Assembly: GCF_041320275.1 (NCBI RefSeq)
Contig: NZ_CP162023.1
Coordinates: 3,100,001 to 3,164,000, forward strand
Length of the DNA: 64,000 nt
Source of the DNA: Mumia sp. Pv4-285
GTDB taxonomy: Bacteria > Actinomycetota > Actinomycetes > Propionibacteriales > Nocardioidaceae
Direction of reading: 5' to 3'
The stretch's first letter is position 1. Every line of letters begins with the position of its first letter. The notes below the pieces were generated by a model. The model did no database searches, was not told where the DNA came from, and worked only from the letters and a program-made list of their open reading frames with translations. Positions 724 through 3,951 of this stretch are shown here, piece after piece. A program made the translations under genes and the position numbers.

Positions 724-1482
724 GTGAGCAGCACTGGCACGAGCGGCGACAGCGACGGCAAGCCGCAGATGGTCATCACCGGCGAGCGCACCGTGCCGGG
801 CATCTGGCACGAGAACTACTGGTTCCGACGCCACGAGGTCGTGTACGAGTCGCTCCGTGACGTGGTGCGCGGTCGAGCGGTGCTCGAGGCCGGCTGCGGC
901 GAGGGGTACGGCGCCGACCTGCTGAGCCACGACGCCGCGTCGCTGGTCGCGCTGGACTACGACGCGTACGCGACCGGCCACGTCCGCAGCGCCTACCCGG
1001 ACGTGCCGGTCGTACGCGGCAACCTCGTCGCCCTCCCGTACGCCGACGCGTCCTTCGACGTCGTGGTGAGCCTGCAGACCGTCGAGCACCTGTGGGACCA
1101 GGACGCCTTCGTCGCCGAGTGCGCGCGGGTGCTCCGCCCCGGAGGCTCGCTCGTCGTCAGCACGCCCAACACGCTGACCTTCCCGCCGGGCAACATCTAC
1201 CACCCCAAGGAGCTCGAGCCCGAGCAGCTGCACGACCTGGTCGCCGCGCACGCGACCGTCGCGAGCCTCGCCGGGCTGCACCACGGGGAGCGCCTCGCCG
1301 ACTGGGAGGTCGAGCACGGCTCGCTCGTCGACGCGCAGATCGCCGGGCCGTACGAGCTGTGGCCGACGACGGTCGCCGACGCCGTCCGGTCGGTCACCGT
1401 CGACGACTTCGACCTGCGCGAGGGGGATGCCGACGACCTCGCGGCGTCGCTCGACCTGGTCGTCACCGCCGTCCGGGCGTAG
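724..1482 (+). CDS. SAM-dependent methyltransferase, Rv3030-like
   Basis: This 252-residue class I methyltransferase has the SAM-binding motif I EAGCGEGYGADLL at about residue 57, an acidic motif II (ALDYD), and the post-motif ECARVLRPGG typical of Methyltransf_11. The N-terminal sequence TGERTVPGIWHENYWFRRHE closely resembles, from memory, mycobacterial Rv3030, which lies in the methylglucose lipopolysaccharide gene neighbourhood. Homologues of other genes from that neighbourhood follow at 3.3-5.7 kb, supporting the assignment. The partner GH57 and glycosyltransferase genes known in mycobacteria are not in this window. The GTG start is set by the leaderless -10 box. The methylated substrate is probably a sugar or polysaccharide, which is inference. 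Confidence 0.8.
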   Translation: MSSTGTSGDSDGKPQMVITGERTVPGIWHENYWFRRHEVVYESLRDVVRGRAVLEAGCGEGYGADLLSHDAASLVALDYDAYATGHVRSAYPDVPVVRGNLVALPYADASFDVVVSLQTVEHLWDQDAFVAECARVLRPGGSLVVSTPNTLTFPPGNIYHPKELEPEQLHDLVAAHATVASLAGLHHGERLADWEVEHGSLVDAQIAGPYELWPTTVADAVRSVTVDDFDLREGDADDLAASLDLVVTAVRA

Positions 1483-1567
1483 CAGCGCCCACCCGATCAG
1501 CTCAGGGCAGATCTGCCGGCAGGTGATCCGCTGGTGCCGCCCGGGTCCGCGCGGTCACCGTGGAGCC

Positions 1568-2179
1568 ATGACCGACACCAGAGCACCCTCCTTCGACACC
1601 ACGGCGCGGCAGTACCTGCTCGGGCGACGCATCCTCGTGCTCGACGGCGTCCTGGACGACGACAACGGAACGCTCCTCGCCACCCAGCTCCTCACACTCG
1701 CCGCCGACGACCCCGCCACCGACGTGGCGCTGTGGATCCACTCCCCCGGCGGCTCGGTGCCGTCGATGCTCGCGCTGCGCGACGTCATGCGGCTCATCCC
1801 CTGCGACGTGGCCACCCTCGCCCTCGGGCTCGCGTGCAGCGCCGGGCAGTTCCTGCTGTCGGCGGGGACGCCGGGCAAGCGGTACGCCCTTCCGCACTCT
1901 CGGGTCCTCATGCACCAGGGCTCGGCCGGGATCGGAGGGACCGCGGTCGAGATCGAGGTCCAGGCCGACGACCTGCGCCACACCCGGGACACCGTGCTCG
2001 CCCTCGTCGCCGAAGACACCGGGCAGCCGGTCGAGCAGATCTTCGAGGACTCGCTCCACGACCGCTGGTTCACCGCGGCCGAGGCCCGGTCGTACGGGTT
2101 CGTCGACCACGTCGTCGACAGCTTCGACCAGGTGATGCCCGCACGGCGGCGGACGGTCGGGATCGGGGTGGCGCGATGA
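1568..2179 (+). CDS. clpP: ClpP-like serine protease, catalytically complete member of a pair
   Basis: This 203-residue protein is a full-length ClpP-family subunit of the ATP-dependent Clp protease. The triad is intact: Ser91 in LACSAGQ, His116 in LMHQG and Asp165 in HDRWF, with the Ser-His distance of 25 residues matching E. coli ClpP (S97/H122/D171). HSPGGS near residue 60 forms the oxyanion strand. The usual HQP after the catalytic His is HQG here, so the pocket may differ. It overlaps the next clpP by four bases, so the subunits are probably made together and may form mixed rings. Being next to an XRE regulator rather than tig/clpX, this is probably an accessory pair, not the housekeeping clpP1P2. 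Confidence 0.9.
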   Translation: MTDTRAPSFDTTARQYLLGRRILVLDGVLDDDNGTLLATQLLTLAADDPATDVALWIHSPGGSVPSMLALRDVMRLIPCDVATLALGLACSAGQFLLSAGTPGKRYALPHSRVLMHQGSAGIGGTAVEIEVQADDLRHTRDTVLALVAEDTGQPVEQIFEDSLHDRWFTAAEARSYGFVDHVVDSFDQVMPARRRTVGIGVAR

Positions 2180-2799
2180 GCAAGCAGGTTGCGTCCAACC
2201 AATACACGATCCCCAACGTCATCGCGAGCAATCCTCGCGGCGAGCGGATCATGGACGTCTACTCGCACCTCCTCACCGAGCGCATCGTCTACCTCGGGAC
2301 CGCCATCGATGCCGGGGTCGCCAACGCGCTGATCGCACAGCTCCTCCACCTCGAGGCCGACAACCCGGACGCCGAGATCAACCTGTACGTGAACTGCGAG
2401 GGCGGCGACGAGACGGCGATGCTGGCGGTCTACGACACGATGCAGCACGTCCGCTCGCCGATCGCGACGGTGTGCGTCGGACAGGCGATCGCCGCCGGCG
2501 CGGTCCTCGTCGCGGGCGGCACCCCGGGTCGACGTGCGACCCTTCCCCACGCCCGTTTCGTGCTCCACCAGCCCGCGGCACGCGGTCAGGGGACGATCCC
2601 CGACCTCATCCTCCAGGCCGACGAGGTGGTCCGGGTCCGCAACGAGATGGAGGCGATCCTGTCCGCGCACACGGGTCAGTCCGTCGAGACGCTGCGCCAC
2701 GACACCGACCGCGACCGTGTCTTCTCTGCGACGGCAGCGCGCGCGTACGGCCTCGTCGACGCGGTCATGGAGCCACGGGACCTGCTGTCGTACGGGTGA
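2176..2799 (+). CDS. ClpP-like subunit lacking the catalytic serine
   Basis: This 207-residue ClpP homologue starts inside the stop codon of the upstream clpP (ATGA overlap). Fold landmarks are present: NCEGGDE near residue 74, His131 in LHQP, and Asp180 in DRDRVF. The canonical GQAASMG nucleophile motif reads GQAIAAG, so Ala106 replaces the serine; the codon is GCC, not a one-base change from TCC through an ambiguous read. Spacing from residue 106 to His131 is the family-standard 25. It should therefore be proteolytically dead, comparable in logic to cyanobacterial and plastid ClpR, and probably assembles with the active partner. A structural or gating role is inference. Confidence 0.88.
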   Translation: MSKQVASNQYTIPNVIASNPRGERIMDVYSHLLTERIVYLGTAIDAGVANALIAQLLHLEADNPDAEINLYVNCEGGDETAMLAVYDTMQHVRSPIATVCVGQAIAAGAVLVAGGTPGRRATLPHARFVLHQPAARGQGTIPDLILQADEVVRVRNEMEAILSAHTGQSVETLRHDTDRDRVFSATAARAYGLVDAVMEPRDLLSYG

Positions 2800-2824
2800 G
2801 GCGGCGTACGGGCGCTGGCAGCGG

Positions 2825-3166
2825 TCACACGACCGCGGCGAGCGCCTTCGGGCCGAGGTCGAGCGACGTGCCGGCGTACAGGTCGCGTCGGAGCTCGCCC
2901 GAGACGTGCTCCGTCAGATCGAGAAGGGTCGTCCCGAGCGCTCCGGCGACGGCCGCGATGATCTCGCTCGACGGCTCCTTGCGGCCGCGCTCGACCTCGG
3001 AGAGGTACTGCGGCGAGATGCCGGCCGCGGCCGCCGTGTCAGCGAGGCGTTGGCCGCGCTCGAGCCGGAGCGCGCGGATCCGGCGACCCAGGACGTCGCG
3101 CCAGAGCGGCTCCGGCTCTGCTGCCGGAAACCTGCGGCGCGGGCCGATCCTGATGACGTCACCCAT
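2825..3166 (-). CDS. XRE-family regulator, ClgR-like
   Basis: This 113-residue DNA-binding protein has one helix-turn-helix domain (about residues 26-85). The recognition region ISPQYLSEVERGRKEPSSE is strongly reminiscent of ClgR, the XRE activator of clp and lon genes in Streptomyces and other actinobacteria. It converges on the two clpP genes, ending 25 bases from the second, which makes those genes plausible targets. I could not find a clear ClgR box (GTTCGC-type) before base 1568, so the link rests on family resemblance and position. The start is fixed by a -10 hexamer 6 nt upstream. A general XRE regulator of unrelated targets remains possible. Confidence 0.85.
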   Translation of the reverse strand: MGDVIRIGPRRRFPAAEPEPLWRDVLGRRIRALRLERGQRLADTAAAAGISPQYLSEVERGRKEPSSEIIAAVAGALGTTLLDLTEHVSGELRRDLYAGTSLDLGPKALAAVV

Positions 3167-3172
3167 GCTCGG

Positions 3173-3178
3173 ATGCTA
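3173..3178 (-). promoter_or_regulatory. Leaderless -10 element TAGCAT
   Basis: On the minus strand TAGCAT ends 6 nt before the ATG at 3166. No Shine-Dalgarno is visible. Confidence 0.5.
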
Positions 3179-3255
3179 GGCCGGGTCTGCCGTGATCGGG
3201 AGGGCATTCTGCTCTGGGCAGAGCGGAGGTGGAGATCGAACGGCCGCCGGCGGTC

Positions 3256-3951
3256 TCACCCGGGCGGCGGCAGCTCACGCGCTTCGGCCTGCTCCTCCGC
3301 GACCTCGGCGGTGTAGCGCTGGATCTCGACCCAGTCGGCGAGGTCGTCGCGACGGCTCTTCACCACCCGTCCGGGGAGGCCGGCGACGATCGCGAAGTCC
3401 GGGTACTCACCGCGCGCCACCGTGTGCGCGGCGAGCACGACGCCGCGACCGGTACGCGTGCCCCGCAGGACGGTCGCCTTCACGCCGATCCACGAGTGCG
3501 GGCCGATCCGGACCGGCGAGACGACCAGCCCCTGGTCCTTGATCGGCTTCGCCAGGTCGAGCGTGACGTGGTCGAAGTCGCAGATGTACGTCCAGTCCGA
3601 CACGATCGTCGCTGCGCCGACCTCGATGTCGAGGTGCGCGTTGACGGTGTTGTCGGACCCCATGACGACCTTGTCGCCCAGCCGCAGCGTGCCGTTGTGG
3701 GCACGCAGCGCCGTACGGTCGCCGAGGTGCACGAACCTGCCGAGGACCACCCGGCCGTACGGCGGCTTCGTCTCGATCACGACGCCGCGGCCGAGGAAGA
3801 CGAAACCCTCCGTGACGACGTCGGGATGGCGGCGCTTGAACCGCCAGAAGCGCCAGTACCGGACGAGGTGGTACGCCGTCCAGGCGCGGTGCCGCCGGAC
3901 CCACCGCAGCGAGTCGAGGGTCACGAAGCGCGCCGGGCGCGGGGCGGTCAT
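3256..3951 (-). CDS. Hexapeptide-repeat acyltransferase, Rv3034c-like
   Basis: This 231-residue protein has a short basic N-terminal region followed by imperfect hexapeptide repeats of the left-handed parallel beta-helix type between about residues 55 and 190 (repeating I/V-G-x-x-x patterns such as LGDRTALRA, IGPHSWIGVKA and IVAGLPGRVVK). The last segment is the usual C-terminal end of LbH acetyltransferases. The family transfers acetyl or other acyl groups from CoA to sugars or small molecules. It resembles mycobacterial Rv3034c in type and neighbourhood, so a cell-envelope glycan substrate is plausible but unproven. It lies 42 bases downstream of a methyltransferase gene, probably in one operon. 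Confidence 0.8.
   Translation of the reverse strand: MTAPRPARFVTLDSLRWVRRHRAWTAYHLVRYWRFWRFKRRHPDVVTEGFVFLGRGVVIETKPPYGRVVLGRFVHLGDRTALRAHNGTLRLGDKVVMGSDNTVNAHLDIEVGAATIVSDWTYICDFDHVTLDLAKPIKDQGLVVSPVRIGPHSWIGVKATVLRGTRTGRGVVLAAHTVARGEYPDFAIVAGLPGRVVKSRRDDLADWVEIQRYTAEVAEEQAEARELPPPG

Follow-up and report, generated by a model that had tools for sequence, protein, structure and literature searches.

A Mumia clpP3-clpP4 locus with a ClpP4 predicted to be inactive, and recurrent loss of catalytic residues in its actinobacterial relatives

The accessory clpP pair and its genomic context

The window analysed here, a stretch of 64,000 nucleotides from Mumia sp. Pv4-285 (contig NZ_CP162023.1, positions 3,100,001 to 3,164,000), contained 2 overlapping clpP genes, an operator upstream of the first gene and a convergent regulatory gene downstream of the second (Table 1). 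The translations bore out the original prediction that the first protein carries the complete Ser-His-Asp triad and that the second has alanine at the nucleophile position, with 25 residues between the nucleophile position and the histidine in both. The ATGA overlap suggests that the 2 genes are translationally coupled. Both proteins matched the ClpP family PF00574, with scores of 177.9 bits for the first and 212.9 bits for the second. An NCBIfam search assigned no specific name to either of them; the first protein fell under all cut-offs and the second passed only that of the general subfamily PRK12553 (229.5 vs. 228).

Table 1. Features of the accessory clpP locus in the window.
Feature	Position	Strand	Remarks
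Tandem palindromic operator (PopR box), TCAGCTCAGGGCAGATCTGCCGGCAGGTGATC	1497..1528	+	Starts 71 bases before the first clpP start codon
Accessory ClpP, ClpP3-type, catalytic subunit	1568..2179	+	203 aa; Ser91 (AGC codon, 1838-1840), His116, Asp165
ATGA start/stop overlap of the clpP3-type and clpP4-type genes	2176..2179	+	4 bp; from the translations
Accessory ClpP, ClpP4-type, catalytically dead by sequence	2176..2799	+	207 aa; Ala106 (GCC codon, 2491-2493); His131 and Asp180 kept
PopR-like XRE-family regulator, convergent	2825..3166	-	C-terminus ...KALAAVV

The Mumia genome contained 4 clpP genes arranged as 2 adjacent pairs, one of which was the housekeeping pair at C1:1557317-1558545. A gene of the AAA_2 family at position 1559015, beside the housekeeping pair, was taken to be clpX on the basis of its location and size. 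Among the frames read over the first 6 kb surrounding the accessory pair, no ATPase gene was identified. Since 2 more large AAA_2 frames (868 and 878 amino acids) were located elsewhere in the genome, ATPase partners are nevertheless available.

Catalytic residues, phylogeny and selection of the second subunit

The gene for the second subunit was present in all 6 Mumia genomes, with alanine at the nucleophile position in 5 of them and glycine in the sixth. Over the aligned part, 2 of the second subunits from the genus matched those of Mumia quercus and Mumia sp. zg.B17 without a difference. A sequencing error or a pseudogene was therefore rejected, as none of the 6 genes encoded serine and their dN/dS values were low.

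To describe the catalytic residues more broadly, named genomes were scanned with a profile of 15 rows and the best 80 of 574 relatives were kept, a sample biased to the clade of the window protein since one of the search motifs was the clade-specific NCEGG strand. The best 80 included Mumia, Kribbella, Nocardia, Nonomuraea, Catenulispora, Arthrobacter, Mycolicibacterium, Glycomyces and other genera, as well as Microbacteriaceae. Among them, the nucleophile position of the second subunit was Ala in 68, Gly in 3 and Ser in 9, and the triad of the partner was intact in all 80. A class-wide draw of 393 genomes gave at least 150 match rows, from which 90 were taken (30 loci including the window, and 60 chosen down the list). 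This sample leaned to relatives of the window protein, and 9 of the 90 rows branched with the outgroup; in its 81 accessory pairs, the second triad was intact in 24 and broken in 57.

The full set, likewise biased to relatives, comprised 192 loci after merging of identical second subunits, or 193 aligned rows with the window counted twice. The triad of the first subunit was intact in all 193 rows. The second subunit displayed the forms AHD (95 rows), SHD (50), SGD (12) and GHD (10), in addition to 16 rarer forms, in which Ser was replaced by Ala, Gly, Trp, Glu or Phe, His by Asp or Gln, and Asp by Glu, Asn, Thr, His, Gln or Ser. With the 14 outgroup rows removed and the window counted once, 178 accessory pairs remained, of which 142 contained a broken second subunit and 36 an intact one, 10 of the latter within the window's clade. 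Outside this clade, the second subunit was broken in 41 of 67 pairs. The second subunit was located beside the first in 209 of the 212 loci where it was called, a count that includes duplicates and some housekeeping pairs. The original prediction had pointed to cyanobacteria and plastids as the best known setting of such inactive subunits; ClpR-like loss was found to be widespread and recurrent in the second subunit across Actinomycetota.

Other residues than Ser were affected in some lineages. All 12 Streptomyces-type rows, i.e. Streptomyces fungicidicus and 11 rows of one genus grouping with it (SH-aLRT 99), retained the serine and had glycine in place of the catalytic histidine. It was also noted that bulky or charged residues (Trp, Glu, Phe) occupied the nucleophile position in 7 second subunits of other lineages, L201 among them. 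The divergent single rows L118, L122 and L201 are possibly misaligned at the Asp position.

A phage origin of the locus was rejected. A scan of viral contigs yielded 43 stretches, of which only 3 were relatives, at 26% identity, and the 60 matches among phage records were all below 60% identity. The clpP3-clpP4-regulator locus was observed on a human-gut scaffold filed as Bacteriophage sp. (L122, MT835746.1), which probably stems from an actinobacterial chromosome rather than a phage. Similarly, several records filed as plasmids, such as NZ_LT559118.1 and NZ_OL790811.1, look like whole chromosomes from their sizes of 4 to 12 Mb.

A quick maximum-likelihood tree was inferred from the 192 second subunits with the catalytic columns removed; it carries SH-aLRT support only and several deep nodes are weak. 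At least 8 switches in competence, losses and regains together, were counted on this tree, with 14 changes in the Ser column, 5 in the His column and 10 in the Asp column. The window protein belonged to a clade of 111 tips (SH-aLRT 97), which was nested among actinobacterial second subunits in this tree without ClpR rows, and its sister group consisted of 3 intact rows whose own support was low. The substrate-binding strand, NSPGGS in ordinary ClpP, read NCEGGD in 99 of the 111 rows of the clade (residues 73-78 in the window protein, positions 2392-2409).

The expectation that orthologues would lack Ser at position 106 held within Mumia, where none of the 6 genes encoded serine, and failed more broadly, since 10 of the 111 rows in the window's clade contained Ser: 9 from Kribbella, of which 8 were named and 1 was assigned by its genus code, and 1 from Nocardia jejuensis. 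These orthologues weaken the interpretation as an active/inactive pair without overturning it, because they are nested in the Ala clade and all 10 have kept the altered NCEGGD strand. The possibility that they are early branches that never lost Ser was rejected by the AU test (p 9.6e-38) on a subset of 56 rows, in which the 34 sampled non-Ser rows of the clade were constrained to be monophyletic. This leaves a reversal or several losses. The Ser and Ala codons (TCN and GCN) are one step apart and do not decide between the two. In Kribbella the site was seen to alternate among Ala, Gly and Ser, and in Mumia between Ala and Gly.

In the 4 genera for which pairwise dN/dS values were estimated, purifying selection on the dead subunit was no weaker than on its partner. 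The median values for the second and the first gene, respectively, were 0.125 vs. 0.172 in Mumia (6 loci), 0.074 vs. 0.112 in Nocardia (7 loci), 0.043 vs. 0.101 in Nonomuraea (6 loci) and, about equal, 0.185 vs. 0.186 in Kribbella (11 loci). Since its values are at or below those of the active partner, the second gene is maintained rather than decaying. An AlphaFold model of the second subunit displayed the standard ClpP fold (mean pLDDT 88.3), and the top 5 rows in a Foldseek search were chains of Mycobacterium tuberculosis ClpP1P2 entries. The best row in VIA-align, a rank shared by many chains, was 6vgq_A (Z 30.2; 178 residues superposed at an rmsd of 1.1). The predicted fold bears neither on activity nor on the ancestry of the second subunit among ClpP proteins.

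The operator and the regulator

The operator was noticed by word enrichment and matched 11 of 12 positions of a consensus that was derived from the same sequences. Its 21-base core (positions 1497-1517) had its sole exact match in the genome at this site when both strands were searched; allowing for one mismatch, 5 further places were obtained, one of which overlapped the window site, compared to 3 for a reversed control pattern. Scores of at least 9 of 12 were reached at 107 of 111 loci in the window's clade, all 12 Streptomyces-type loci, 50 of 54 other loci and 4 of 14 outgroup loci, a threshold also reached by 11% of the shuffled sequences. Scores of at least 11 of 12 were observed at 91 of 191 loci vs. 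0.08% of the shuffles. The window operator resembles the PopR box of Streptomyces lividans as printed in a review, which cites Viala 2000 (PMC9775585). A shorter operator pattern was of no use, with 157 matches in the genome, and the matches listed in a text search of the literature by box sequence were unrelated. A scan for promoters and terminators in positions 1400-3400 yielded nothing, and the leader RNA did not fold more stably than shuffled sequences (z 0.57).

The regulator gene, which may be described as encoding a ClgR paralogue, was homologous to the gene in the same place at the S. fungicidicus locus, and a convergent PopR-like homolog was present in 143 of the 178 accessory pairs, some loci ending too early to show one. 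The suggestion that the neighbour is ClgR-like was not upheld: its protein was only the third-best ClgR match in the genome, at 54.7 bits vs. 114.9 and 91.7 bits for proteins encoded elsewhere, all 3 were below the cut-off of 170 bits, and PopR fits better.

The terminal alanines of ClgR and Lon are reported to mark these proteins for ClpP, and PopR to be degraded by ClpP1 and ClpP2 (review, PMC9775585). Among the relatives, 135 of 144 PopR-like proteins ended in Ala-Ala, 115 of them in LAA, set against a background of 113 of 3481 six-frame open stretches of at least 150 amino acids (loci from L035 on). The protein encoded in the window lacks this degron and ends in ALAAVV, which suggests that proteolytic feedback on it may be weak in this genome. 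The regulators in the window and 5 other Mumia loci ended in AVV, GVA, LAV and RAI as opposed to LAA and RAA, such that Ala-Ala was lost in 4 of the 6, and silencing of the spare pair may be looser in Mumia.

Kribbella, which accounts for most of the Ser-bearing rows in the window's clade, lacked the convergent regulator and had a weakened box, with 8 to 10 of 12 positions in the 10 loci checked. The best PopR-like gene in this genus encoded a protein ending in ALVA in all 8 genomes searched, and in at least 6 of these it was, by its coordinates, divergently oriented beside another clpP gene.

Division of labour in the back-up Clp core

The window pair is the Mumia orthologue of the Streptomyces clpP3-clpP4/PopR back-up locus, the organization and regulation of which are already known from Streptomyces. 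The 2 loci have the same gene order, with 2 clpP genes and a convergent helix-turn-helix gene (S. fungicidicus p1), and share the PopR box and the intact first subunit. They differ in that the window regulator lacks the terminal Ala-Ala and in the second subunit, which in the Streptomyces-type rows (S. fungicidicus and the 11 rows grouping with it, not S. lividans) has kept Ser and exchanged His for Gly, whereas the window protein has exchanged Ser for Ala and kept His and Asp. The original description as an accessory active/inactive pair thus stands in so far as Ser is absent throughout Mumia and the locus is broadly actinobacterial; it is neither a ClgR locus nor a new one.

In the housekeeping core, ATPases are reported to dock on ClpP2 only, both in M. 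tuberculosis (PMC4416901) and in Streptomyces (PMC9765437), and the exchange of Ser for Ala in Streptomyces left full proteolytic activity when made in ClpP2 and abolished activity when made in ClpP1 (PMC9765437). If the active site of the docking ring is already dispensable, its loss in ClpP4 is to be expected. We located the 3 published docking-pocket positions by their distance from the nucleophile. In the second subunits, the first position was mostly polar or small, the middle one was Tyr in 177 and Phe in 1 of 178, and the third was His, Phe or Tyr in 174 of 178. In the first subunits, the first position held Ser or Ala in 154 of 178, the middle one Trp or Tyr in 164 and the third Leu in 153, the last of these in contrast to Tyr in 10 of the 14 outgroup pairs. 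Histidine at the third position, found in 67 of the 178 second subunits including that of the window, is unlike the Tyr of the published Streptomyces ClpP2. Furthermore, the N-loop proline was kept in all 193 second-subunit rows, and the first subunit of the window had no alignable N-loop. As the pocket and N-loop residues thus differ between the subunits, the face for docking appears to be retained in the second, and the first resembles a cutting ring. The N-loop proline and the pocket Tyr are also found in ordinary single ClpP proteins, so that they indicate a kept docking face rather than descent from ClpP2. The second subunit was not specially near ClpP2, as it scored 188.5 bits with M. 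tuberculosis ClpP2 and 201 bits with the single-type ClpP of Thermus. The first subunit resembled ClpP1 in sequence.

Taking the residues and their conservation together with the gene order, the operator, selection and the predicted fold, we consider it probable that this is a back-up protease locus under PopR-type control in which the ClpP3 ring cuts and ClpP4, without a working site of its own, serves as a structural ring that docks the ATPase. The 2 overlapping genes would give rise to a 2-ring Clp core in which ClpP3 does the cutting, and the ClpP4 ring would dock a Clp ATPase (ClpX or ClpC) and admit the substrate. We infer the hetero-assembly, the ring composition and the docking on ClpP4 from these features. 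Induction would occur when the housekeeping ClpP1P2 fails, as is reported for Streptomyces and presumed for Mumia.

An unlikely alternative is that ClpP3 and ClpP4 are mixed within each heptamer, so that the dead subunit dilutes the active sites and no separate docking ring exists. The cyanobacterial ClpP3/R core is of this kind, with 3 active and 4 inactive subunits per ring (PMC4673316), and the overlap of the clpP3 and clpP4 genes would fit such an arrangement; the Streptomyces ClpP1P2 core is, however, argued to consist of 2 stacked homo-heptamers as in mycobacteria (PMC9765437), and the docking features of ClpP3 and ClpP4 are unlike. Because the Streptomyces accessory ClpP-ADEP is reported to disrupt ADEP-activated ClpP1 and to pair with ClpP2 (PMC12607617), ClpP4 could also be imagined as a regulator that pairs with or poisons housekeeping ClpP1 or ClpP2 rather than as a partner of ClpP3, which we regard as decidedly improbable given that the second subunit adjoins the first in nearly all loci and that the 2 window genes overlap.

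A still more doubtful account of Ala106 is neutral decay that would in time remove a redundant gene. The toggling of the site in Kribbella and Mumia speaks for it, but the dN/dS values of 0.04-0.19 are equal to or below those of the active partner, the gene is retained throughout Mumia and the predicted fold is intact. We give hardly any credence to the idea that the second subunit remains catalytic through another nucleophile, such as Cys74 of the NCEGGD strand. This residue was found in 96 of the 101 non-Ser rows and all 10 Ser rows of the window's clade, but the 5 other non-Ser rows read NSEGGD, and no Cys occurred at this position in broken second subunits outside the clade (as seen in all 12 rows of the Streptomyces type and, for 29 others, in their commonest forms). 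Its position, which from ClpP geometry we take to precede the oxyanion glycines and to lie away from the nucleophile elbow, also counts against it.

The preferred reading, a cutting ClpP3 ring and a docking ClpP4 ring, may be compared with other unequal ClpP cores. ClpR of cyanobacteria and plastids is likewise a paralogue of ClpP that lacks a working triad and is produced alongside an active ClpP (PMC4673316), and the window protein, judged by Ala106, resembles it in this respect; the setting and the regulation differ, and only the nucleophile is lost in the window subunit. Restoring the active site of ClpR in Synechococcus is reported not to have made the core faster (PMC4673316). Listeria ClpP1/ClpP2 also joins unequal partners in one core; the odd one of the two carries Asn where the triad has Asp and shows activity as part of the complex (PMC9765437, PMC4673316). 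No statement on an actinobacterial ClpP4 without catalytic residues, or on its recurrent loss, was found in the portions of the literature covered (including PMC9765437, PMC12607617, PMC9775585, PMC7142297, PMC4416901, PMC4673316 and PMC8182300); the original Streptomyces papers (Viala, Compton 2013) and the supplements lie outside this scope and may hold one. With respect to the housekeeping ClpP1P2 of actinobacteria, the first subunit is like ClpP1 and the second keeps the docking features of ClpP2, the Ser of which is reported to be dispensable in Streptomyces (PMC9765437). The second subunits that grouped with the ClpP2 of this genome differ in having kept Ser-His-Asp (4 of 4 rows, and 14 of 14 in the outgroup).

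The old question of why compartmental proteases retain dead subunits has mostly been asked of ClpR in cyanobacteria and plastids. At the clpP3-clpP4 locus, the loss occurred several times separately, sister lineages are intact and one residue has apparently reverted; the hosts are culturable soil bacteria and the regulator is of a known type. Because several losses and intact sisters occur in culturable bacteria, the question becomes testable by comparing intact and broken second rings of sister species. The interest lies in the recurrence of the loss in ClpP4 more than in the single Mumia gene, and the pair is probably not peculiar to this genome but a protease that cuts on one side. We see an even chance that across Actinomycetota, Streptomyces included, the back-up Clp core is designed to cut with one ring, with ClpP4 freed from catalysis and its activity lost repeatedly through Ser, His or Asp, and with loss in ClpP3 at 0 of 192 loci. 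Streptomyces ClpP4, usually listed as another ClpP, may accordingly be a subunit that does not cut, to judge by its residues. ClpP3P4 is reported to be insensitive to ADEP (PMC12607617). If the one-ring design is true, the spare protease, with its altered ClpP3 docking pocket, would present fewer points of attack to active-site inhibitors and ADEP-type antibiotics while the main Clp protease is being targeted.
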